Origin: Rhodopseudomonas pseudopalustris
GTDB lineage: Bacteria > Pseudomonadota > Alphaproteobacteria > Rhizobiales > Xanthobacteraceae
Reading direction: 5' to 3'
NCBI RefSeq assembly: GCF_900110435.1
Contig: NZ_FODT01000002.1
Location: 248,001 to 312,000 of the forward strand
DNA length: 64,000 bases
The notes beneath the pieces were generated by a model. That model did not search any database and was not told where the DNA came from. It saw only the letters and a program-made list of their open reading frames with translations. This document shows positions 7,974 through 26,077 of this stretch, one piece after another (within the stretch, counting starts at the first letter, position 1; each line of letters starts with the position of its first letter). Made by a program: the position numbers and the translations under genes.

Positions 7974-8372
7974 GCGTCTCGCGCGAGCGATCCTGATAAC
8001 TGATTGCAATGGCCGGGCAAGTCCCGGCCATTTGCTTGCGTGGTGATTGCTCGCACGTGCGGGCAGTCGACGCTTGTAGGCGACGCTTGTGGATCGAATG
8101 GCGTGTGTGTGTCGGCCGAGCGGGAACCGAGTCGCGCGCGTGATAATTGAGAGGTTCCGTCGACGTCGTGCCTTGACGCAATCTTAACCACTACAATGAA
8201 GTTGCGGTTTACCAAGGCTCGCGGAAGTTCTGCGAACTAATCGCTTGTTGTTGCGTGTGGCGCTGCTGCATCGGCGATTAACGCACAAGCAACTTTAATC
8301 GAATAACAACAGAGAAGATCAACTTGTTCGAAACGACAGGTTGGTTCCAGTAAGCGTTGCGTGAGCGTATCG
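7974..8372. other. intergenic region between ppdK and the cell wall hydrolase gene
   Basis: About 390 bases. It holds the ppdK terminator hairpin (8008-8033), then an AT-richer stretch (8180-8345) that probably carries the promoter of the SleB gene. No credible small ORF was seen. Confidence 0.5.
8008..8033 (+). terminator. ppdK terminator hairpin
   Basis: AATGGCCGGG and CCCGGCCATT pair around a 5-base loop, followed by TTGCTTG, 35 bases after the ppdK stop. Confidence 0.7.
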
Positions 8373-12655: not shown

Positions 12656-13771
12656 TCAGTTCTTCAGATTGATCATCCGCTCCACCGAGCGTCGCGCCGG
12701 CGCGATGATGGCCGGATCGACCGTGACGTCCTCACGCAGATACACCAGGCTGTCGAGGATCTTCGCCAGCGTGATCCGCTTCATGTGCGGGCACAGGTTG
12801 CACGGCCGGACCATTTCGACGTCGGGCAGCTCGGCCTGGACGTTGTCGGCCATCGAGCATTCGGTGATCATCACCACCCGCTTCGGGTGCTTGTTGCGCA
12901 CCCAGTTGATCATGTGCGCGGTCGAGCCGGTGAAGTCGGCTTCGGCCAGCACGTCCGGCGGGCATTCCGGATGGGCGATGATCTGCACGCTCGGGTCGGC
13001 CTCGCGATAGCTGCGCAGCTCGTCGCCGGTGAAGCGCTCGTGCACTTCGCACGCGCCCTTCCAGGCGATGATCTTCACCGTGGTCTGCGACGCCACGTAC
13101 TTCGCCAGATACTGATCCGGCACGAAGATCACCCGGTCGACGCCGAGGCTCTCCACCACCTGCACCGCATTCGACGAGGTGCAGCAGATGTCGACCTCCG
13201 CCTTCACGTCGGCCGAAGTGTTGACGTAAGCCACCACCGGCACGCCGGGGAAGCGTTCGCGCAACAGACGGACGTCGGCGCCGGTGATGCTGGAGGCGAG
13301 TGAGCAGCCGGCGCGCGAATCCGGGATCAGCACGCGCTTCTCCGGATTGAGGATCTTCGAGGTCTCCGCCATGAAGTGCACGCCGCATTGCACGATCGTC
13401 GACGCTTTCACTTTCGTCGCCTCGATCGCGAGCTGCAGCGAGTCGCCGACGATGTCGGCGACGCAATGGAAGATCTCCGGCGTCTGGTAATTGTGCGCCA
13501 GGATCACCGCGTCGCGCTGAATCTTCAGCTCGTTGATCGCCTTGATGTAGGGCGCCATGAACGGCCATTCGACCGGCGGAATCACCTTCTGCACGCGCGC
13601 ATACAGCGGCGCGGTCGCGCGCTCGACCTCCGGGGTCCATTCCAGCGACGGCATCGGCAAAGCGCGCGCCTTTTCGGCGGCGCTCAGCGGCGCGCGGGCG
13701 AGGGGGGACGACCGTCCGTGTGCCGGCTGGCCGAAGTGCTCCGGGCCATAGAGTTCAGCAAGCGGCATCAT
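12656..13771 (-). CDS. nadA: quinolinate synthase A
   Basis: About 371 aa. The [4Fe-4S] enzyme condenses iminoaspartate with dihydroxyacetone phosphate to quinolinate. The cluster ligands are visible in [17 protein letters not shown]-type and CNLCPHMK contexts, with [20 protein letters not shown] upstream. An AGGAGG lies just before two consecutive ATGs (13771 and 13768). The second has the better spacing, and the open frame extends to 13858 without a good site. It is first gene of nadABC; operator-like palindromes lie upstream. Confidence 0.95.
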
Positions 13772-15823: not shown

Positions 15824-18523
15824 TCACGGCGAGGGGGTCATCGTCGCGTCTTCGGCCGGCGTCGCCCGCGACCGAAACAGGATGCGCTGGTACAGCCAGC
15901 CGATCGCCACCAGCACCAGTCCCAGCCCCATGAATGACAACGCCCGGTACACGCCGGTCAGCGTCGACATGTCGATCACGAACGCCTTGACGATGGTCAG
16001 CCCGATCACCACGGCGGAGGCGAGTCGGGCGCGCTGCGAATTGAACAGGATGCCGGCGCCGAGCAGCAATACGCCGCAGCCGAGCCAGGCCAGCGAGTAG
16101 GTGTACTGCTCGGCGTCGCCGGTGACGCCGCGCCACAGCACCGGGCCATGATACAGCCTGCGGATCTCCAGCGTGACGTAGGCCAGCCCCATCACCAGCG
16201 CGAGACCTGCGAAGCTGTTGGCGTAGGCCGGCCGGCGCAGTCCCGCGACCGCGTAGGACAGCAGCAGCGCCAGCAGCGCCGGGGCCGCATAGCCGAGCAG
16301 CAAGGTGTTCAGCAGCAGGCCGCCGATGTCGGCCGACCACCACAGCATCGGGTTTTCGAACAGCAGCAGGCCGCCGACGCTGGCGAGTGCCGCGAACACG
16401 GCAAGCAGGATCGCCGCGACGTTGTGGACGATGCTGCGGCTGCGGACCCGCAGTCGCTCGAGGCCGATCGCCATCGCCAACGCGACGCAGACTTGCAGCG
16501 CGACCTCGGTCAGTCCGGCGCTGTCGCGATAGACGTCGCCGCCATTGACGGCGTGGCGGATCTGCAGAAACGCCAGCAGCACGGTGAACAGGATCGCTGC
16601 GGATTCCATCATCCGCAGCGGGACGTCGTCGCCGCGCCGGCGCATCCAGTGGCTGGCGGTCCAGAACGACAGCGCCGGCACGCCGTAGCCCCACAGCAGC
16701 CAGTTGAAGATCGGCGTGGCGCCGACCGCGTCGCCGACGATCCGCGGCTCCCAGCCGATCCGCAGCACGACGATGCCGGCGAGGATCGCGGCGAGCCAGC
16801 GCAGGAACGGGATCGGCCGTTGCAGCGAGATCCACGCGGTGCCCGCCGCCATCAGCGCCAGCGCGATCGTCAGCCAGCCCTTCTCGAGCGCGAAGGTCAG
16901 AGCCAGCGCCAGCGCGCCGAGCGTCCCGGTGGCGAACAGCGCGGTCGAGATCGCAAGCCCGGGTCTCGTCTCTCGCTTGCTCAGCGCTTCGGTCGCGGCG
17001 CCGAACGCGGCGGCGATTAGCACCGCGACAATCGCGAACGGGATCGAGCGGTCGAGATGCGCGATCCGCGCGTACAGCGCGATCAGCAGCGCCAGCGGCG
17101 TGAATACGCCTGCGGCGGCCCAGATCACCGGCACCACCGCGCTGACCGAACGGCCCTGCGCCAGCACGCCGGCGACGCCGAAGCCGATCGCGAAAACCGC
17201 CGCGGTGATCAGATGCGTGGTCACCGGGCCGGCGATCGGATCGGTGCCGATGCCGGGCAGCGGTCCGCCGGGCAGCGTCAGCAAGTCGGGCGCGCTGCGG
17301 ATCACCCAGAGCAGGAACACCAGCGCGACCAGCCCGGCCGCCGCGCCGACCGCCGCGGTCGCCGCCGCGGCGCGCCACGCCACGATCAGCGTCGCCGCGA
17401 CCAGCAGCGCGAACACGATCACGGCGCTGTCCGCATGAGCGCTGTCGACCACGATCAGCGCGGCCGCCAGCAGATAAGCGGCGAGCGAGCCGGACGACAC
17501 CGGCTCGATCCGGCCATCCTCCAGTGACGGGCCGAACAGGAAGCCGCACACCACCAGCAGCGCGGCGAGCGCGAAGCCGGCGATGACATGGAAGGCATGC
17601 GGCGCGAGTGCGGCCAGTCCGTCTTCTAGGCCCGGCAGCGTCCACAGGAACGCCAGCACGATCGTGCTCACCGCGAGCCAGCGCCACAGCCGGATCCGGG
17701 CGAGGCCGAACGCCGCAGCGGTCACCACCGCGAGATAGATGTACAGCGCCCAGTAATCGGGCTTCTCCGACGACACCAGCACCGGCGTGACGAAGGCGGC
17801 GACGACGCCGAGCCCGGCCAGCGCCGGGCCGTGCAGCAGCGCCGCCGCCATGGTGCCGAGTGCGACCAGCCCGAGCAGGATGAACGCGCTGGCGGGCGCG
17901 AGGAAGTCGTACAGCGCGTAAGCCGCGTAGACGGTGGCGAACGCCACCGCGGTGCCGGCCGCGGTGAGGATCGCCGGAATGTTGGCGATCGGCAGCGCGG
18001 CGATCTGCGAGATGCTCTCCTTGCGCCGGGTCCATTCGCCGGCGCCGAGCAGCGCCAGTGCGAACAGGCCGCCGAGCAGCACGCGCACGCCGGGACCGAG
18101 CAGGCCTTGTTCGATCGAGTAGCGCACCATGAAGAAGCCGCCGAGCGCCAGCGTCAGGCCGCCGACCCACACCACCCAGCGGGTGCCGATGCGCTCTTCA
18201 AAGCCGGGCTTGGCGTGCGGAGGGCGCGGCGGCGATGCTGGCGGCGGAGGGGCGATCGGTTCATCCGCCGAAGCGATGCTGTCGGCGCTTGCGGACTCCG
18301 CAACCATGGCCTCGGACAAAGCGGGCTCAACGTCCTGCGGAAGCGGCGCTTCCGCGACGACACTTTCACTTGCTGCGGCCGTCGCCGGGCGCGTGCGACG
18401 AGCCAGCGGCTGGCCTGTTTCCAGCGCCGCGAGCCGGGCCTGCAATTCCTGGGAGCGATTGTTCGCCTTGCGCGCCAGCACCAGCGCCACAATGGCAATC
18501 ACGAGCGTCAGTAGTTCGAACAT
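15824..18523 (-). CDS. DUF2339 multi-spanning membrane protein
   Basis: 899 aa. It begins MFELLTLVIAIVALVLARK, a membrane anchor, then a coiled Q/E/A segment (SQELQARLAALETG) and a Pro/Ala/Glu linker to about residue 105. GFEERIGTRWVVWVGGLTLALGGFFMVRYSIEQG follows as the DUF2339 entry motif, and then more than 20 hydrophobic helices run to the end. CTGGAG precedes the start. The family is widespread in proteobacteria, of unknown function, and found in the inner membrane. It is convergent with the secreted protein gene. Confidence 0.85.
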   Translation of the reverse strand: MFELLTLVIAIVALVLARKANNRSQELQARLAALETGQPLARRTRPATAAASESVVAEAPLPQDVEPALSEAMVAESASADSIASADEPIAPPPPASPPRPPHAKPGFEERIGTRWVVWVGGLTLALGGFFMVRYSIEQGLLGPGVRVLLGGLFALALLGAGEWTRRKESISQIAALPIANIPAILTAAGTAVAFATVYAAYALYDFLAPASAFILLGLVALGTMAAALLHGPALAGLGVVAAFVTPVLVSSEKPDYWALYIYLAVVTAAAFGLARIRLWRWLAVSTIVLAFLWTLPGLEDGLAALAPHAFHVIAGFALAALLVVCGFLFGPSLEDGRIEPVSSGSLAAYLLAAALIVVDSAHADSAVIVFALLVAATLIVAWRAAAATAAVGAAAGLVALVFLLWVIRSAPDLLTLPGGPLPGIGTDPIAGPVTTHLITAAVFAIGFGVAGVLAQGRSVSAVVPVIWAAAGVFTPLALLIALYARIAHLDRSIPFAIVAVLIAAAFGAATEALSKRETRPGLAISTALFATGTLGALALALTFALEKGWLTIALALMAAGTAWISLQRPIPFLRWLAAILAGIVVLRIGWEPRIVGDAVGATPIFNWLLWGYGVPALSFWTASHWMRRRGDDVPLRMMESAAILFTVLLAFLQIRHAVNGGDVYRDSAGLTEVALQVCVALAMAIGLERLRVRSRSIVHNVAAILLAVFAALASVGGLLLFENPMLWWSADIGGLLLNTLLLGYAAPALLALLLSYAVAGLRRPAYANSFAGLALVMGLAYVTLEIRRLYHGPVLWRGVTGDAEQYTYSLAWLGCGVLLLGAGILFNSQRARLASAVVIGLTIVKAFVIDMSTLTGVYRALSFMGLGLVLVAIGWLYQRILFRSRATPAEDATMTPSP

Positions 18524-18580
18524 GACATCTCCAGGCGACCGGCCCGGACGCGGGACGTTTCGCTTCCTATCACAACTTCA

Positions 18581-18613
18581 GCGCCGGCCGCTCCTGCAGC
18601 ACCTCGCGGCGGA
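18581..18613. repeat. left copy of a 33-bp direct repeat bracketing the helicase cassette
   Basis: Identical to 22781-22813 except at one base, exactly 4200 bp apart. Read on the minus strand in the nadQ frame, it encodes RREVLQERPA followed by LKL and a stop, mimicking the NadQ C-terminus (RREVLQERPAPG). Confidence 0.75.
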
Positions 18614-18688
18614 CGAAACGCAATTGGCGATCCGGTGCTTCAGTCACTGTAGTTACAAGAAACGAGGCCTAGGCACCCACTGATCAGC

Positions 18689-21574
18689 CTAGACAGGCGG
18701 CATCGAAGCCGCCGTCTCGATTCCAGCATCCTCCACTTCTTTCGGACCGTTTGATTGGTTCCTTTCTGCTGCCGCCAGTAGAACTAGGTCGTTGGGATGA
18801 AGGAACTTACTCAGGTCCTCTGCCATCAATACTTCCGCCCGATCCCTCGCGGCTCCCAATTCAGTCTGCTTTGTTGCAGGGCTCTTGTTGATGGGCAAAC
18901 CCTCAGCTGCGGTGCCATTTAAGAGCTGCTTTACCAAGTGGTTTGCGGCACTGTAGCGTCCGTCCGGACCCCGCTCTACGAGAATGAGGCGTTCAGATTG
19001 AGTTCTTCCTTGATCGTTCTGGAATCTTGCGAGGAACGCGGCGAAAAATTCAGGAAGCGATGGATCTTCAAAGGCGCCATAGCCTCCTTCAAATTCCGGA
19101 GAGGTGATGGAGTTGACGATGAAGTCAACGAATGATGACGAAAAGTCGAGAAGCACTACATCAGTGTGGGGGCGCCAATCGGCACGCTTCGTTGTTACCG
19201 GGATCACAGTCCTTGTGCCGAATTCCGGAAATTCTCCTTTAAGTTGGTCCGGCAGGCGGATCACAAACTTCTCTCGCCCGCTTTCCGAAGAGAATTCGAT
19301 CCCAAAAAAGGGAAGTGCCCGCTTTATTATCGAGCAGACTTCTTCGGTAGTGAATGAATTTGTAATAGCATTTTTGAGCTCCAAATCAGTCATGGTAAGT
19401 AGGACTTCATCCTGCATCTTCTTTGCTTTTCGCGCCTCCGCTAGGGCCGCGTCGACCCTCTCAGTTGGACGTTCGATTTTCCCGGATTTTGCCTCTTCGA
19501 GAAGTAAAGAAATGTCAACGCGGTCAAGAAGTTCTCCCATTACCTCCGCAGCATACGTGTCGTAATCGGAGAATTCCGTGCTGACTCGAGACATGGCTGA
19601 CACGATCGCTTCTAAGCGATCAAACAAAACCCCAAGTATTTCGTTGTCTATTGTGTCTCGAGCGCAAAAATTGAAAACGATCACCTTCTTCATTTGTCCA
19701 TAGCGGTAGAGGCGCCCGATACGTTGGCTGATGCGGCTGGGGTTCCAGGGTAAATCGTAATTGATCAGGATATGGCAGCTTCGATGCATATTTAGGCCTT
19801 CGCCGCCGGCCTCGGTGGAAATCAAAACTTGAGCGTCTTCTTCAAATCTCTGCACTGCATCACGTTTTTCGTCCGCGGAGTGGCCCCCGTGTATCAAGAG
19901 AGGTTCGACCTTTAGGACTGAGCGAAGCATGTAGAGGATGAATGCCTGAGTTGCACGATATTCGGTGAAGATCAGTACTTTTTCTCCCTCTGCATTGACT
20001 AGCCGATTGATCAGTTCGACCAATTCCTGGCACTTCCTATCGGTTCTCATGCAGTCGGTGGTCTTTCCCAATAGCCGTTGAATTAATTCAATTTCTCCAT
20101 CAAAGAACTGATGTGGGCTGGCTGTGGCTGGTCGATTGCTAAGGTCGTCGTCTACATCGTCATCTTCTGATGGGTTGAGCGTTTCCGATCCATTCGCTTC
20201 CTCAATTCGTTCAAGGCGTCGCTTCAGCGACATGTGTAGTGCCGCGACAGAAGAAGATGCGAGCTTCCGGTAGATTGTCATGACGAAGCCGATGGCGCGC
20301 CCCTCTGAGCCACCCATGGCCTCTCCGGCTTGGTAGCCCGTCCGCAGATAGGTCTTAAGTTCGCGCTCCATCTCCGCAAAGGCCGGATCGTGACTCACTT
20401 CAATCCGTTTCACGGAGACGCCCTTAAATAGAAAATTGCCCTCGATGTCGACTGTGTCAATCTTCCGATTTCTGAGGACGATCTCCCTCACTACGTCGCT
20501 GTTTTCTTCAAGCTGATCAATCGCTGGCTTAAGATCTGGGCGGACCAAAGAAAGAAGGTTGCGGAATTTTCCATTATCTCCCTGATGTGGGGTGCCGGAA
20601 AGGAGAACTAACGAGTCGGTTTTCTTTCGGAGGGCTTGGGCAAGTTTGAACCGCAGGGTGGATTGGCCTCTATCGTTACGAGCCAATCTATGTGCTTCGT
20701 CAAATATGACGATGTCCCAACTTCCGGCAGCCAGTAACATTCCAAAATTGCTATCTAAGTCGGCTCCGTCGTCATCGGAAGATCGAGGCTTTGCGAGATC
20801 CAGCGATACGATTACTCTCTCATAGAGCCCCCACTCTTTATGGTCAGAAACTCGAAAGTCGACTCCGTAAATAAGGAAGCGTCGATCGAATTTCAGGAGC
20901 ATTTCATCCTTCCATTGACGGGTCAGCCCAGACGGCACGACTAGTAAGATGCGGCGAAGGGTCTCCCTTCGCTCGAGTCCAGCCATAAGAAGTCCAACCT
21001 CAATTGTCTTTCCGAGACCCACGTCGTCTGCAATAAGCCAGTTAGTTTGACCTGAGTTTATAATGTGATGCACGAGTGCGATTTGGTGAGGAAGGGGATC
21101 TACGTCAAGGCGATCGAGCGCGCCGGTGGCTTCATTCCAGCTTTTCAGTGCTTGAGCGATAATATTGAGTGACGTTCGTTCCGCAGCGCGGTCCTCGATC
21201 GGTTCAGAACGCTTGAATCGCAGCGAAGGATCCTTCACGCGTTTAAGCCGTTCAAATGGCAGCCAAATCAGCTTTCCGGATTGATGGAATTGAACTAACG
21301 CCTGTTCGCGCGTTGCTAGTTCACGGATTTCGACGACCGTTCCTGTACCAAGTGTACGTCTCACGCTAGAAAGCGGTATGTCTTGGACCGTAAAGCCGGG
21401 TCTGAGGCCAGACCCCCACTCATGTTGCGCAATCCACGATCTTCCAAATGGCCCAAAGTCAGCCTCAATTGCTGTTCTACCGTTGCGATTCGCGACGTGT
21501 AAGACAACTCCAATTTTGTCTGGATCATCTCGTTTGCAGATCCACGAACCGACAATCGGAACAAGGTCAGACAT
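18689..21574 (-). CDS. SNF2-family helicase/ATPase (RapA/DrmD-like)
   Basis: 961 aa. The N-terminal region (about 5-115) looks like two small SH3/Tudor-like modules (IVGSWICKRDDPDKIGVV and GTVVEIRELATREQALVQF), as in RapA. The SNF2 motor follows: Q-like LPHQ at 161, Walker A DDVGLGKT at 183-190, FDEAH at 291-295, SGTPHQ at 326-331, motif V STEAGGEGLNMHRS at 586-599 and motif VI QRIGRLYRYGQ at 617-627. A D-rich loop (467-478) precedes the second RecA lobe. The last 270 residues match nothing I recognise. Motor motifs are intact. DISARM DrmD and DpdE have similar motors, but their partner genes are absent. A defence role is inferred. Confidence 0.85.
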   Translation of the reverse strand: MSDLVPIVGSWICKRDDPDKIGVVLHVANRNGRTAIEADFGPFGRSWIAQHEWGSGLRPGFTVQDIPLSSVRRTLGTGTVVEIRELATREQALVQFHQSGKLIWLPFERLKRVKDPSLRFKRSEPIEDRAAERTSLNIIAQALKSWNEATGALDRLDVDPLPHQIALVHHIINSGQTNWLIADDVGLGKTIEVGLLMAGLERRETLRRILLVVPSGLTRQWKDEMLLKFDRRFLIYGVDFRVSDHKEWGLYERVIVSLDLAKPRSSDDDGADLDSNFGMLLAAGSWDIVIFDEAHRLARNDRGQSTLRFKLAQALRKKTDSLVLLSGTPHQGDNGKFRNLLSLVRPDLKPAIDQLEENSDVVREIVLRNRKIDTVDIEGNFLFKGVSVKRIEVSHDPAFAEMERELKTYLRTGYQAGEAMGGSEGRAIGFVMTIYRKLASSSVAALHMSLKRRLERIEEANGSETLNPSEDDDVDDDLSNRPATASPHQFFDGEIELIQRLLGKTTDCMRTDRKCQELVELINRLVNAEGEKVLIFTEYRATQAFILYMLRSVLKVEPLLIHGGHSADEKRDAVQRFEEDAQVLISTEAGGEGLNMHRSCHILINYDLPWNPSRISQRIGRLYRYGQMKKVIVFNFCARDTIDNEILGVLFDRLEAIVSAMSRVSTEFSDYDTYAAEVMGELLDRVDISLLLEEAKSGKIERPTERVDAALAEARKAKKMQDEVLLTMTDLELKNAITNSFTTEEVCSIIKRALPFFGIEFSSESGREKFVIRLPDQLKGEFPEFGTRTVIPVTTKRADWRPHTDVVLLDFSSSFVDFIVNSITSPEFEGGYGAFEDPSLPEFFAAFLARFQNDQGRTQSERLILVERGPDGRYSAANHLVKQLLNGTAAEGLPINKSPATKQTELGAARDRAEVLMAEDLSKFLHPNDLVLLAAAERNQSNGPKEVEDAGIETAASMPPV

Positions 21575-22649
21575 CCATTTCCTCCGCAGTCTCTGTGTTT
21601 TTAGTGTTCGCTTTGTTGATTGCGGATGAGTAGTTGCCTAGAGGATTTGTGTAGGTGTTCATCAGTAGGGCAGTTCGTGAGCCGTTGTTCGAGATTTGAT
21701 ATCCGTCGATTGTTGCAATGTCTTTGAGGGACTCCCTTCCGTATTGGAAGCGGGGGTACATTCGTCCGGCGGGAGGATCTTCAAGGCGGTTTATCGGTCG
21801 GCGGCGCGTTGGTGGTTCATCAAGTGCGCCTTCTTCAAATGCCTGCAGGCGGGCGCAGACGTAATCAATAAATCGAAACCGAAGCGGGTCGCCGCTGGGT
21901 AAGTCCAGCCATTCATCGATCCATGATGCGTCAATTATCGTTTCCGGCGGAGTGCCACGCGTTTGAACGACTAACCGAAAAGCGAGGCGCCAATACATGA
22001 GTCCATCTCTGTTTTCGATGAGGCTTAGGTTGCCCCTTTTCTGCCTGATCGCGGAGTAATTAGGATTGTCGTTCCATGCTTTCTTGAAATCGTATGTTGC
22101 TAGTACTTGATCGGGAGATGCATCTTCCTCTCGGATAAGAGTCGCTATCGCCAAGTAGGTGGAGGGGTGGGGGTAGTCTGTAAACAAATCTACGAATCGT
22201 CCGATTAGGCGATCCTGTGCTTTTCCGATGAGGCCTGCGAGAGCTAAGATGGCTGCGGAGCACTTAAGTGCGACGCTTTCCCTTGAGCTAAGGGGCAAGT
22301 CCAGCACGAAGGGCGGTTCGTGGCCCGCGGGATCAAATGCTGGGATGACGACTTCGTCGTACCAAGATGCTGTTTGAACCGAAGAAAGGGAAGCTCGGCG
22401 AGCCTCGGGCAGAGGATCCCAATAATCGAACCAGACCTGTCTGTCTGCATTTCGTTCGAGGGGCGGGTAGTGGTTTGTATCGGCATCTTGAGGTGAATTG
22501 GCCTCAATTCCAATCTTTGAAGCGGCTAGGAGCTGAGACGCTTCGGTCGGGTCGGTTGAGTGTGGCTCCCAGAAATCGAAAAATTCAGGTGCACGTGCCG
22601 GAGGTGGAGCAAAATCCTCCAAATCCCAAGAATCTAGCAATCGCCCCAT
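21567..22649 (-). CDS. unknown protein, partner of the SNF2 helicase
   Basis: 360 aa from ATG at 22649; a TTG five codons earlier is weaker. No known domain or nuclease motif recognised. The acidic N-terminus carries three copies of a hydrophobic-hydrophobic-D-x-W-D/E motif: LLDSWDL (4-10), FFDFWEP (23-29) and WFDYWDP (73-79). A helical middle (ESVALKCSAAILALAGLIGKAQ) and a Trp-rich region (MYWRLAFRLVV, WIDEWLDL) follow. Its stop overlaps the helicase start by 8 bases, so translation is probably coupled and the products likely act together. Lower GC than its neighbours. Confidence 0.75.
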   Translation of the reverse strand: MGRLLDSWDLEDFAPPPARAPEFFDFWEPHSTDPTEASQLLAASKIGIEANSPQDADTNHYPPLERNADRQVWFDYWDPLPEARRASLSSVQTASWYDEVVIPAFDPAGHEPPFVLDLPLSSRESVALKCSAAILALAGLIGKAQDRLIGRFVDLFTDYPHPSTYLAIATLIREEDASPDQVLATYDFKKAWNDNPNYSAIRQKRGNLSLIENRDGLMYWRLAFRLVVQTRGTPPETIIDASWIDEWLDLPSGDPLRFRFIDYVCARLQAFEEGALDEPPTRRRPINRLEDPPAGRMYPRFQYGRESLKDIATIDGYQISNNGSRTALLMNTYTNPLGNYSSAINKANTKNTETAEEMDV

Positions 22650-22672
22650 GACCCCAGTTCGCAAACATCAGA

Positions 22673-22699
22673 TTTGTAATAGAGCGTATTTCATCGCAA
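22673..22699 (-). promoter_or_regulatory. possible sigma-70-like promoter of the helicase cassette
   Basis: On the minus strand TTGCGA, a 15-base spacer and TACAAA lie 25-50 bases upstream of the first cassette gene, in AT-rich sequence. The spacing is slightly short, so this is tentative. Confidence 0.3.
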
Positions 22700-22751
22700 A
22701 TTGTGTGGGGCGTCTAGTACCATTATGGGTTGCTCTGAACATCCGATCAGG

Positions 22752-23732
22752 TCAGCGCCGGCCGCGCACGCGCAGGCCGGGCGCCGGGCGCTCCTGCAGC
22801 ACCTCGCGGCGGAAGCGGAACAACGCCGCGGGCCGTCCGCCTGTTCGTGTCGACATCTCGCCGGTCGGTTCGACCAGCGCGCCGGCCTCGACCAGCCGGC
22901 GGAAATTCTGTTTGTGCAGATGACGCCCCGAGATCGCTTCCACGGTATGTTGCAACTCGGTGAGTGTGAATTCCGGCGGCAGAAGTTCAAACACCACCGG
23001 TCGGTACTTCAGCTTGGCGCGCAGCCGCGCGATCGCGGTGGCGAGAATCCGGCGATGGTCGAACCGCATCGCCAGGCCGAGCGGCGGCACCTTGGCGCGC
23101 GAAAGCGCTGCGGGTCGGCCATCGCGCCGCGCCTCTTCGATCAGGCCGGCTTCGTAGAGCAGTTCGTAGCGATCGAGCACGCGTTCCTCGTCCCATTGTG
23201 CGCCGTCGATGCCGAAATACAGCCGGACGCGATCCCTGCGGGCGAGCGCGCGCGCGGTGTCGGCCTGCTCGGCTTGCCCGGCCCATGCGGTGAGTTCGGG
23301 GATGATGTCGCGCTCGATGATCTCCGGCCGGTTCTCGCGCCAGTCTTCCCACGGAAAGAAGCGGTACCACGGCTCGAAGGTCGCGCCGGCGGCGTTGTCG
23401 ACCGCGCGGGTCAGCGCCAGATAGCCGATCGAGGCGACATGGACGTCGGTGTCACCGAGCCGCGCATGGCGGCCGCGGTCGCCGAAGGTGTAGAGCTGCT
23501 CGACATAGCCCAACCGCAGCCCGGTCTGTTCCTCCACCCAGGCGCGCAGCCCGATTTCAAGCGTGCGATGGGAGATCGCGTCGAACGGGCCGTAGGGCAG
23601 GCCGATCAGGTTGTTGCCGCCTGACGCCGTCAGAATCAGCGGCTCGTTGTTCTCGATTGCGACGATGGCTGCGGTCAGCCCGATCTCGATCGGAATCGGG
23701 AGACTGTCGCCGGTCGAGGGCTTGTCGCTCAT
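22752..23732 (-). CDS. nadQ: NadQ-type transcriptional regulator of NAD synthesis (COG4111)
   Basis: 326 aa from ATG at 23732. The N-terminal half is NUDIX-like (IEIGLTAAIVAIENNEPLIL, SGGNNLIGLPYGPFDAISH), but the NUDIX box is degenerate: LRAWVEEQTGLRL lacks the canonical REUxEE spacing. That fits a sensor rather than a hydrolase. The C-terminal half is a winged-helix region (FTLTELQHTVEAISGRHLHK, NFRRLVEAGALVEP). It is known in alphaproteobacteria as a repressor of nad genes. The nadABC operon with matching palindromes is 9 kb away. The last codons are shared with the 33-bp repeat. Confidence 0.8.
   Translation of the reverse strand: MSDKPSTGDSLPIPIEIGLTAAIVAIENNEPLILTASGGNNLIGLPYGPFDAISHRTLEIGLRAWVEEQTGLRLGYVEQLYTFGDRGRHARLGDTDVHVASIGYLALTRAVDNAAGATFEPWYRFFPWEDWRENRPEIIERDIIPELTAWAGQAEQADTARALARRDRVRLYFGIDGAQWDEERVLDRYELLYEAGLIEEARRDGRPAALSRAKVPPLGLAMRFDHRRILATAIARLRAKLKYRPVVFELLPPEFTLTELQHTVEAISGRHLHKQNFRRLVEAGALVEPTGEMSTRTGGRPAALFRFRREVLQERPAPGLRVRGRR
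22781..22813. repeat. right copy of the 33-bp direct repeat, inside the nadQ 3' end
   Basis: Pairs with 18581-18613 (32 of 33 identical). It encodes the FRREVLQERPAPG region of NadQ about 10 codons before its stop. Confidence 0.75.
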
Positions 23733-23745
23733 GCGGCTGCGATCG

Positions 23746-24252
23746 TCATTCGAGATCGATGCGGAACGGCTGGCCGTCGACGCTGATACTGCCGGGACCG
23801 ATCCTATCCAACGCCCGCAGCATTCGCCCATCGCGACCGAGCGCGCGATCGGCCAGCGTGACGATCAGCCGGTTCGGGGAGGCGCTCGGCGACGCGTCGC
23901 GGATCTGCTGTGCGATCACCGCCTCGTCGCGATGCGGGTTCAGCGCGCAGGCGGCCGCGAAGGCGCTCGCCGTGGAGCGGCTGATGCCGGCGTAGCAATG
24001 CACCACCAGCGGCGCGGCGCGGTCCCAGGCGCGGACGAACTCCAGCACCTGGACGATGTGCTCATCGTTGGGCGCGACGAAGCCGTCGATCTGTTCGGTG
24101 ATGTCGTCCATCGAGATGCGCAGATGGTTGGCCTCCAGCACCGACGGCGGCCGCTTGACCTGGCCGACATCGGCCATCACCGACAGCACGTGGCTGGCGC
24201 GGGTCGCGGCGACGGTCGGATGCAATGCTGCGAGCGAGCAGACGTGAATCAT
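23746..24252 (-). CDS. protein tyrosine / dual-specificity phosphatase
   Basis: 168 aa. The catalytic P-loop HCYAGISRS matches HCx5R(S/T), with the general-acid region around ISMDDITEQ upstream. It is the small cytoplasmic PTP type found in Rhizobiales. GGAAGG precedes the ATG. It ends 13 bases before nadQ starts, so the two are probably cotranscribed. The substrate is unknown. Confidence 0.85.
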   Translation of the reverse strand: MIHVCSLAALHPTVAATRASHVLSVMADVGQVKRPPSVLEANHLRISMDDITEQIDGFVAPNDEHIVQVLEFVRAWDRAAPLVVHCYAGISRSTASAFAAACALNPHRDEAVIAQQIRDASPSASPNRLIVTLADRALGRDGRMLRALDRIGPGSISVDGQPFRIDLE

Positions 24253-24360
24253 GAGGCCTTCCGGAGTTGGCGCGATCTTAATCCTGCGCCGCTTGCGGTG
24301 AAAGCGCGATGACGGCGCGCGCCCCGCGTCGAGCGAAGCCGGTTTGCGGGATGAAACGCG

Positions 24361-24984
24361 TCAGGAACCTGGCTCGCACAGCGCCTGGAACCGCGTCAGA
24401 AAGCGTTTCTCGGCCTTTCCGGCCGACCACGGCGTCAGATAGTCGTCCTGCATCGTCTGCGGCAGGCCGGGATCGCTGCCGAACAGCCGCTTGGCCTCGG
24501 CCTTGGTGAAGCCGGCGAGGCTGGTGGCTTCGAGATAGGCGGCGCCGCGGTCGGCGGCCTTGATCTGGCGTTCGATCGCCTCGTCGAGCGCGGCCGGCAG
24601 GCCGAATCGGATGTGGATCGCTGCCAGCAGCCGCCGCTCGACGGCCTTGTAGGATTCGCCGATCACCGCCTTGAACGGCGAGATCATGTCGCCGATCACG
24701 TATTCTGGGGCGTCGTGCAGCAGGGCCGCCAGCCGCAACCGCGCGTCGATCCTGGGATTGCGCTCGCGCATCACCGCCTCGACCAGCAGGGTGTGCTGCG
24801 CCACCGAGAAGATATGGGCGCCGCTGGTCTGTCCGTTCCAGCGCGCCACCCGCGCCAGGCCGTGGGCGATGTCCTCGACTTCGACATCGAGCGGCGAGGG
24901 GTCGAGCAGATCGAGCCGGCGGCCCGACAGCATCCGCTGCCAGACCCGGCCTGCGGCTTGCGATGTCTTGGGAAGGGTGGTCAT
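24361..24984 (-). CDS. HD-domain hydrolase, YfbR-like nucleotidase
   Basis: 207 aa. Metal-binding H and HD residues appear in order: FSVAQHTLLV, LRLAALLHDAPEYVIGD (the HD motif), then KAADRGAAYLEA. The opening RVWQRMLSGRRLDLLDPSPLDV is typical of YfbR-type 5'-deoxynucleotidase relatives in alphaproteobacteria. It probably acts on phosphorylated nucleosides; the specificity is not readable. It is separated by about 110 bases from the phosphatase gene. Confidence 0.8.
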   Translation of the reverse strand: MTTLPKTSQAAGRVWQRMLSGRRLDLLDPSPLDVEVEDIAHGLARVARWNGQTSGAHIFSVAQHTLLVEAVMRERNPRIDARLRLAALLHDAPEYVIGDMISPFKAVIGESYKAVERRLLAAIHIRFGLPAALDEAIERQIKAADRGAAYLEATSLAGFTKAEAKRLFGSDPGLPQTMQDDYLTPWSAGKAEKRFLTRFQALCEPGS

Positions 24985-25057
24985 GGCAGGTCGAGGCGAC
25001 GTCCGGGTTCCGGTGCGGCCATCGCGGAAGCCGCGGCGGCGTCACCGACATATAGAA

Positions 25058-25102
25058 CATGATCCCGAAAAATGGGCGCCGGTTCTTTCGAAAAAATCAT
25101 GC
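25058..25102. repeat. Rhizobiales CATGAT palindromic repeat
   Basis: CATGATCCCGAAAAATGGGC on the left and a matching AAAAAATCATG on the right, with CGCCGGTTC in the middle. This is the common dispersed palindrome of Rhizobiales. It lies in the 280-base gap between the HD gene and the 56-aa ORF. Confidence 0.75.
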
Positions 25103-25262
25103 TCGAACAAGAATCTAGAGCTGCATGACAATGCGAAGATCCGGCATTCAGCTCCAGCAGTCTGCCCGAACTAAGCCACCGTCTCGGCTCAGTTCTGCAC
25201 GATCTTGTGGATAGGCTGATCATCCTTGTGCTGGTGGGCGCGTTGCACCAAGGGGGAATGCC

Positions 25263-25433
25263 ATGGGGATGACCGATCGCCGCGAGGCGGACCGATCACA
25301 GGCCGAAGACGGAAGCCGTCAGGCCGCTCCGGAAGTGCCGTTGCAAGAACTGCAACAGGAAAACGATTCTCTGAAAGAGCTGGTGGTGAGCCTGTCGGAG
25401 CTGGTGATCAAGCGGGTCGCCGATCAGCGCTGA
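25263..25433 (+). CDS. 56-aa coiled-coil small protein
   Basis: Starts at ATG 25263 after AGGGGGAA; a second Met lies two codons on. The N-terminus is polar. The second half has heptad leucines, LQELQQENDSLKELVVSLSE then LVIKRV, a short coiled coil or zipper. Similar mini-proteins with an LKELVVSLSE core are common in Bradyrhizobium relatives, from memory. Its stop overlaps the convergent tag gene by 10 bases. The role is unknown. Confidence 0.6.
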   Translation: MGMTDRREADRSQAEDGSRQAAPEVPLQELQQENDSLKELVVSLSELVIKRVADQR

Positions 25434-26077
25434 CGCCTTGCAGTCTGACGCGCCGGCGCCGCAGAACGTCGCGCCGGCCGTTGCATCGCGCCGCAGCGCG
25501 CATGGCAGTGGCAGCTCACCAGATGGTCGTTGACCATGCCGACCGCCTGCATGAATGCGTAGACGATCGTCGGACCGACGAATTTGAAGCCGCGCGCGGA
25601 AAGCTCCTTTGAAATCTTCACCGACAGCGGCGTCGAGGCCGGCACGCCCGCGGTGGTCTTGAACGCGTTGACCTTCGGCGCGCCGCCGACAAAGTCCCAC
25701 AGCAATTTCGAAAAGCCCGGTCCCTCTTCCTGGATCTTCAGCCACGCCTTGGCGCTGCCGATCGCGCCGTCGATCTTGGCGCGGTTGCGGACGATGCCGA
25801 CGTCGTTCATCAGCTCCTGAATCTTGGCCGCGTCGTAGCGGGCGATCTTCGCGGGATCGAAATCGTCGAAGGCCCGACGGAAGTTGTCGCGCTTGCGCAG
25901 GATCGTGATCCACGACAGCCCGGCCTGGAAGCCGTCGAGGATCAGTTTCTCGAACAATGCGCGGTCGTCATATTCCGGCACGCCCCATTCATTGTCGTGA
26001 TACGCGACGTAAAGCGGATCGTCGCCGGGCCACGGGCAACGCGTCAATCCGTCGTCGTGCAGGCGCGCAGCGGTCAT
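25424..26077 (-). CDS. tag: DNA-3-methyladenine glycosylase I
   Basis: 217 aa. Removes 3-methyladenine from alkylated DNA (base excision repair). It has the family start RCPWPGDDPLYVAYHDNEWGVP with zinc-binding Cys, FEKLILDGFQAGLSWITILRKR, and the late HLVSCHCHARC motif supplying His and Cys ligands. The C-terminal RPARRSAAPARQTARRQR tail is an extension. Its ATG overlaps the ygfZ stop by 4 bases (ATGA), so ygfZ-tag is an operon. Confidence 0.93.
   Translation of the reverse strand: MTAARLHDDGLTRCPWPGDDPLYVAYHDNEWGVPEYDDRALFEKLILDGFQAGLSWITILRKRDNFRRAFDDFDPAKIARYDAAKIQELMNDVGIVRNRAKIDGAIGSAKAWLKIQEEGPGFSKLLWDFVGGAPKVNAFKTTAGVPASTPLSVKISKELSARGFKFVGPTIVYAFMQAVGMVNDHLVSCHCHARCGAMQRPARRSAAPARQTARRQR

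Follow-up and report, generated by a model that had tools for sequence, protein, structure and literature searches.

Can two genes, one for a helicase akin to those of bacterial defence systems and the other for a protein that no domain library recognizes, make up an immune module? The question is raised by a locus of Rhodopseudomonas pseudopalustris, in a 64-kb stretch of contig NZ_FODT01000002.1 (positions 248,001 to 312,000; from here on, the window) that belongs to a genome, G000, of 5.27 Mb in 28 contigs. Between window positions 18581 and 22813, two genes follow each other on the minus strand: gene B, for a partner protein of 360 amino acids (aa), and gene A, for an SNF2-family helicase. 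An initial annotation had proposed them as a stand-alone defence module, carried into this chromosome as a unit.

We find that A-B is a real, conserved, and mobile two-gene unit, which is likely related to BrxHII and DrmD and likely outside every named system tested. We judge it probable that the pair is a horizontally moving two-component defence module, in which A would be a double-stranded DNA translocase of the BrxHII/DrmD/RapA group. Its function is most likely immune, to judge from the kinship of the helicase and from the neighbours of five loci. Such a module would be a small defence candidate with a partner unrecognized by four libraries, and with a range that extends from a Rhodopseudomonas relative to Deinococcus plasmids. 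And the scars of its insertion show that a unit of two genes, in which no recombinase gene is seen, can slot in exactly behind host genes; this is relevant to the question of how genes for restriction and other kinds of defence come to move with long target duplications.

The motor protein and its partner

Gene A (18689..21574, minus strand, 961 aa) encodes an SNF2-family ATP-dependent DNA translocase related to BrxHII, DrmD, and RapA, as assigned by Pfam, PADLOC, and motifs. A Pfam scan finds both motor domains, SNF2-rel_dom (E-value 2.7e-14) and Helicase_C (1.1e-20), and the motifs DDVGLGKT, DExH, TPHQG, and QRxGRLYRYGQ are unchanged across 11 A homologues. The top PADLOC model is BrxHI/BrxHII, with 338.7 bits, and the next ones are HmaA and DrmD, all of them defence helicases. 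The SNF2 motor that the initial annotation described is thus there, and the RapA-like N-terminus that it added is not shown: a profile of the 11 A N-termini matched no RapA in the PDB, and its two matches, both at E 0.7, were to small proteins. The C-terminus of A had no match among solved structures in a sequence search with E up to 1. The source genome has two more SNF2-like helicase genes (contig C6, 719-2407, and contig C21, 57320-58675), with 33-39% identity to parts of A.

Gene B (21567..22649, minus strand) starts at an ATG at 22649; an alternative upstream TTG start would give a protein of 365 aa. As the initial annotation had noted, its end overlaps the start of A by 8 nucleotides (nt), ATGTCTGA (21567..21574, minus strand), an arrangement that suggests translational coupling. 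The two genes also differ from their surroundings in composition, again as noted at the outset. The guanine-plus-cytosine (GC) content is 0.49-0.56 in the four 1-kb segments of 19001-23000, and 0.60-0.74 in every other such segment of the 64 kb; at third codon positions it is 0.52 for A and B versus 0.83-0.90 for the flanking genes.

What kind of protein is B? It could not be given a domain from the sequence alone, and it has no match at E 1 in any of four libraries (Pfam, NCBIfam, PADLOC, and PHROGs). Scanning the B cores of the 11 loci described below one by one against Pfam yields just two stray matches, in one member each (E 0.01 and 0.055), and a search of solved structures with the sequence of the core yields none with E up to 5. 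The structure checks that had been suggested thus gave no solved match for either the B core or the A C-terminus, and they did give a layout for B: an acidic, low-confidence N-terminus (residues ~1-115), a helical core (~121-275), and a poorly predicted C-terminus. The AlphaFold2 (AF2) prediction, from two sequences, places helices in the core, with a confidence score (pLDDT) of ~80 at residues 121-190 and low values over most of the remainder. The N-terminal part has a net charge of -9 to -49 in 9 of the 11 members, and a positive one in both Deinococcus proteins; total lengths range from 354 to 1315 aa. No more than three core columns (W, W, F) stay the same in all 11 sequences, which argues against an enzyme, and no nuclease is recognized in A or B. 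B is probably a non-enzymatic, fast-evolving adaptor of A.

Conservation and distribution of the pair

Does B accompany A elsewhere? It does so at every one of the 11 distinct loci examined in this A clade: the B core is encoded by the gene immediately upstream of A. BLASTP links join all 11 members (E 1e-132 to 5e-3). In hhalign comparisons among four B groups, the best E-value is 3e-17, for the Rhodopseudomonas-type group and the group of genomes G477, G557, and G572; the Rhodopseudomonas-type and Deinococcus groups align at E 0.03, which is not significant alone, and are bridged by the group of Nitrosococcus, G1085, and G939. The helicase thus stands, as the initial annotation had it, without the partners usual in described systems, beside one that in the window goes unmatched in four libraries.

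The pair is rare and scattered in our sample, whose 1980 genomes (repeats counted) limit what can be said about abundance. Counting the genome of the window each time, B is present in 2 of 16 genomes of the genus and 3 of 391 of the family, among them that of R. rhenobacensis (G060), in the same family as the window and another genus; profile matches of A occur in 4 of 385 genomes of the class and 3 of 398 of the phylum. A profile of the B core matches the same 3 of 398 phylum genomes as A, with no unlinked B core, where the profile was built partly from those three loci and at most eight first-look candidates were scored per genome. No further pair was found among four genomes of the G572 family. 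Scans of genome contigs returned nothing with B alone, and one locus with the alignment.

Plasmids added further pairs, one from Nitrosococcus and two from Deinococcus. A has matches in 889 plasmid records; eight were opened, and the B core is found in those three (A identity 35-40%) and not in the other five (26-33%), in one of which the upstream gene is cut off by the fetched stretch. Searching plasmids and phages with B alone gave no match. In phages, none of 100 records matching A spans 80% of it, and six loci on viral contigs that match the A profile (29-35% identity) have no B core among their open reading frames (ORFs). The core is also absent from 829 ORFs of 14 outgroup SNF2 loci, three of them merely 3-5 kb long. 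Homologues of the two genes unlinked elsewhere, and a partner belonging to a known system, were both looked for as outcomes that would contradict the proposed module, and neither was found.

Insertion at a host stop codon

How did the pair come to stand where it does? The stretch that holds it is bounded, at 18581 and 22813, by a 33-nt direct repeat (18581-18613 and 22781-22813) that is 97% identical. Alignment with relatives identifies the copies. The upstream one (22752..22813, minus strand) is the last 62 nt, up to the stop codon, of an intact gene for an NrtR-like regulator (NrtR_WHD by Pfam; 22752..23831, minus strand). The downstream one (18578..18613, minus strand) is a 36-nt remnant of the 3′ end of that gene, with ~26 nt lost inside, and it continues into the native spacer ahead of a gene for a DUF2339 membrane protein (15824..18523, minus strand). 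The local alignment score of the repeat is 62, compared with a maximum of 29 across 500 base shuffles.

The regulator is present in 15 of the 16 genomes of the genus that were searched, 13 of which were examined besides the window's own and G005. The site is empty in 11 of these 13, with DUF2339 directly behind the regulator. In the other two, G001 and G003, DUF2339 was not found in the fetched stretch; other ordinary-looking genes follow in G003. In G005 a divergent A-B pair occupies the same stop codon, and it is flanked by a 184-nt repeat with two mismatches that ends at that codon. Thus at both occupied sites the target is repeated on either side of the pair, and at empty sites it occurs once, as in an insertion with a long target duplication. 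That A-B was carried into the chromosome as a unit, which the initial annotation had proposed, is well supported by these repeats, the empty sites, and the second pair at the same site. The regulator site as a general hot spot is rejected: the exact motif occurs in 36 of 351 genomes, and twice only in G000 and G005.

Did the two cassettes descend together with their flanks? Between the window and G005, residue identity is 76.5% for A and 56% for B. Fourfold-degenerate sites agree at 106 of 346 positions (0.31) in A and 27 of 93 in B, where 0.25 is expected at random; in the flanking genes, they agree at 130 of 184 and 347 of 485 (0.71), where the random expectation is 0.43. Since agreement is near random in the cassettes but not in the flanks, the cassettes probably predate the split of their hosts, and they were probably acquired or exchanged separately at one site. 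Vertical inheritance along with the flanks is not favoured by the fourfold sites; codon-usage effects and allelic replacement by homologous recombination remain alternatives. The protein identity kept by A while its fourfold sites are near random indicates selection on A. The two loci also have a similar stretch from the regulator stop to B, which suggests that the cassette ends share one origin.

A third case lies in G572, from another family of the class, where the pair sits between two copies of the 3′ end of a gene that by eye is carboxymuconolactone-decarboxylase-like. The repeat is 176 nt at 94% in an ungapped search, with a clean block of 158 nt and three mismatches that ends at the stop codon. 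The fetched region of the relative G1124 contains a single copy of the target stretch, and what lies downstream there is unmatched, so an empty site is shown only partly. Separately, at locus L067 a repeat of 90 nt at 74% lies at 8152-8241, between the start of a WYL regulator gene and B, and at 12777-12866, behind A; this may be what is left of an old target duplication, or it may consist of two operators for that regulator.

By which route might the unit move? It would enter at the stop codon of a host gene, the gene would stay intact, and a 3′-end copy of 36-184 nt would be left on the far side. A serious possibility, though somewhat less likely than not, is a site-specific element of the e14 type that replaces the last codons of a gene and whose integrase has been lost or acts in trans, rather than a target-duplicating insertion like those of restriction-modification (RM) systems or homologous recombination of a circle. 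In G005 and G572 the repeats, of 184 and 158 nt, reach exactly to the stop codon and are comparable with the 163 bp of icd that e14 splits off, according to an excerpt of PMC6379469; the upstream copy in G005 closes with TGA, where TAA is found in close relatives of G005 and in its downstream copy. Against such an element, no non-overlapping ORF of at least 90 aa other than A and B lies between the repeats at any of the three loci, and the two copies in G005 are like those native to the recipient clade, with 96-99% identity to G004, G006, G007, and G012 versus 90-91% to the window.

Neighbourhoods at other loci

The proposed survey of gene neighbourhoods finds the pair at other loci, with restriction or other defence genes adjoining it in 5 of 11: G060, G939, G477, G557, and the Nitrosococcus plasmid. 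In G060 and G939 the adjoining genes are those of type I RM systems. In G477 and G557 the pair stands between genes for an N6_N4_Mtase and a UvrD helicase, and a ResIII gene lies upstream (all by Pfam); the G477 methyltransferase is type III-like by PADLOC (MTase_III, 1386 bits). The Nitrosococcus record annotates Dsr1 and, likewise within 10 kb, a restriction endonuclease. The two Deinococcus plasmid loci, with transposases and hypothetical genes, and with TnpB in one and a NERD-domain protein in the other, were not counted as defence. In G572 and G1085 the pair sits among ordinary-looking genes.

Is the pair then self-sufficient, as the initial annotation held? It stands alone in the window, G005, G572, and G1085, and does not in G477 and G557, a setting in which it may also serve as a module of larger systems. 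One may go further, and take it for an accessory module of RM systems, with stand-alone copies that lean on other systems of their hosts or are vanishing. We give this tentative weight. The place of the pair between methyltransferase and UvrD genes, and the type I RM genes beside two others, speak for it; the frames of all four stand-alone copies are open, and A is under selection between the window and G005, which speak against.

Some side observations belong here. Loci L062 (5996-19010) and L061 (2-13435) have an operon-like order of ResIII, a type III-like N6_N4 methyltransferase, B, A, and a UvrD helicase whose N-terminal part is RelE/ParE-like by eye; this composite locus resembles ArmD of ARMADA plus a type III RM system. 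Beside the R. rhenobacensis pair, locus L005 (207-8004) encodes two PD-(D/E)XK proteins, the first of which also has a UvrD part; by eye they are AddAB-like. A 467-aa protein encoded there has no Pfam match. In the window, the other genes nearby look housekeeping (quinolinate synthase, methyladenine glycosylase, SRAP, and others). Upstream of the regulator, at 24278-26077, small minus-strand genes are tightly packed (a YfbR-like nucleotidase, the methyladenine glycosylase) and ordinary.

Proposed function and its alternatives

If A-B is a defence module, we imagine it working as follows. The conserved helical core of B would dock on A, and its variable, mostly acidic N-terminal arm may sense or regulate. 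During infection B would load A onto foreign DNA, where A could translocate at the expense of ATP and so stall replication or strip off proteins. It may do so alone or together with the nucleases of nearby restriction systems, whose help is considered because no nuclease is recognized in either protein. A bolder proposal, which we think unlikely, is a minimal self-contained cassette without an integrase: the captured host 3′ end would guide it to the stop codon of the gene from which that end came, either by a recombinase acting in trans or by homologous recombination of a circular form, leaving the gene undamaged and the site refillable by divergent versions, and immunity would come from a two-protein translocase with its specificity in the B arm.

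Several observations weigh against a mobile defence module. Ten neighbour proteins of the window pair (within 10.9-28.4 kb) have no PADLOC match at 1e-5, so the window locus itself offers no guilt by association. Clear flanking repeats occur at only 3 of 11 loci; in G939 the repeat is weak, 90 nt at 74%, and 7 of the 11 have no pair-flanking repeat of 30 nt or more. The distances of A and B are correlated across loci (r=0.971, n=11, permutation p 0.0001; 0.932 with n=8), which speaks for the module, but such a correlation is also expected from shared descent. On the structural side, the AF2 model of A, from two sequences, has a mean pLDDT of 35 and is unusable, and a fold search with the model of B gave nothing, with 86 PDB matches up to E 10 and the best at 1.2. 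Finally, A is related to RapA (156.6 bits), a housekeeping helicase. That the pair is a RapA-like accessory of transcription or DNA repair, ordinary horizontally acquired genes and no immunity, is quite improbable: among solved structures the A profile matches RapA chains best (E 3e-48), and the ten neighbours in the window show no defence gene, but A stays far below the RapA model cut-off of 576 bits and scores best with BrxHI/BrxHII, and the pair is patchily distributed, with defence neighbours at 5 of 11 loci. The RapA score likewise rejects RapA as the identity of A.

Comparison with known systems

How does A-B compare with what has been described? The pair is not named in the excerpts of PMC12839542 and PMC12458937 used here, nor in the titles and abstract openings that literature searches listed, and searching by identifiers turned up no paper.

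The closest relatives of A belong to BREX and its kin. In BREX, BrxHII is described as having the architecture TUDOR-SNF2-inactive REase-alpha+beta, and BR systems have helicases related to it (PMC12839542); BrxHII resembles A in its SNF2 motor and its length (~940 vs. 961 aa). BREX differs in that its BrxC/DUF499 ATPase, methyltransferase, and PglZ are not found beside the window pair, and B is not named among its components in the excerpt. Type 3 BREX and BR (Hma) were rejected as identities for the pair: the helicase kinship is there (338.7 bits), but none of the 10 neighbours matches an ATPase or methyltransferase. In DISARM, class 1 DrmD is a defence helicase of the SNF2 type like A; A scores 293.9 bits against one DrmD model (NF038317, cut-off 610) and 158.7 against another (NF038318, cut-off 950), below both, and none of drmA, drmB, drmC, and drmMI is among the 10 neighbours by PADLOC at 1e-5. 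Dpd is rejected too, with 189 bits for DpdE (cut-off 500) and no dpd partner among the 10.

ARMADA has a BrxHII/RapA-like helicase, ArmA, which is akin to A, and a RelE-UvrD helicase, ArmD, which is similar to the product of the UvrD gene that follows A in G477 and G557 (PMC12458937). It differs in its YprA-like helicase and PglX-like methyltransferase, not found beside the window pair, and B is unmentioned in that excerpt. It is rejected for the window, where the 10 neighbours have no defence match in a 2023 version of PADLOC-DB that may lack ARMADA models. Type III Druantia DruH-DruE (PMC13316683) and Hachiman HamAB consist of two proteins with one helicase, as A-B does. HamA is a nuclease, and none is recognized in B. 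DruE and HamB are not among the PADLOC families listed for A (25 of 52).

As to mobility, e14 has the 3′ end of a gene duplicated, as at A-B, where no integrase gene is seen between the repeats. RM systems insert with long, variable target duplications (PMC3031569 and PMC3874152, citing Nobusato 2000 and Furuta 2010), and A-B is like them in being a compact defence-type unit without its own transposase, flanked by direct duplications of the target on the scale of 100 bp. It differs from the RM insertions in those excerpts in not being an RM system, in its insertion at stop codons at three loci, and in the use of one site twice.

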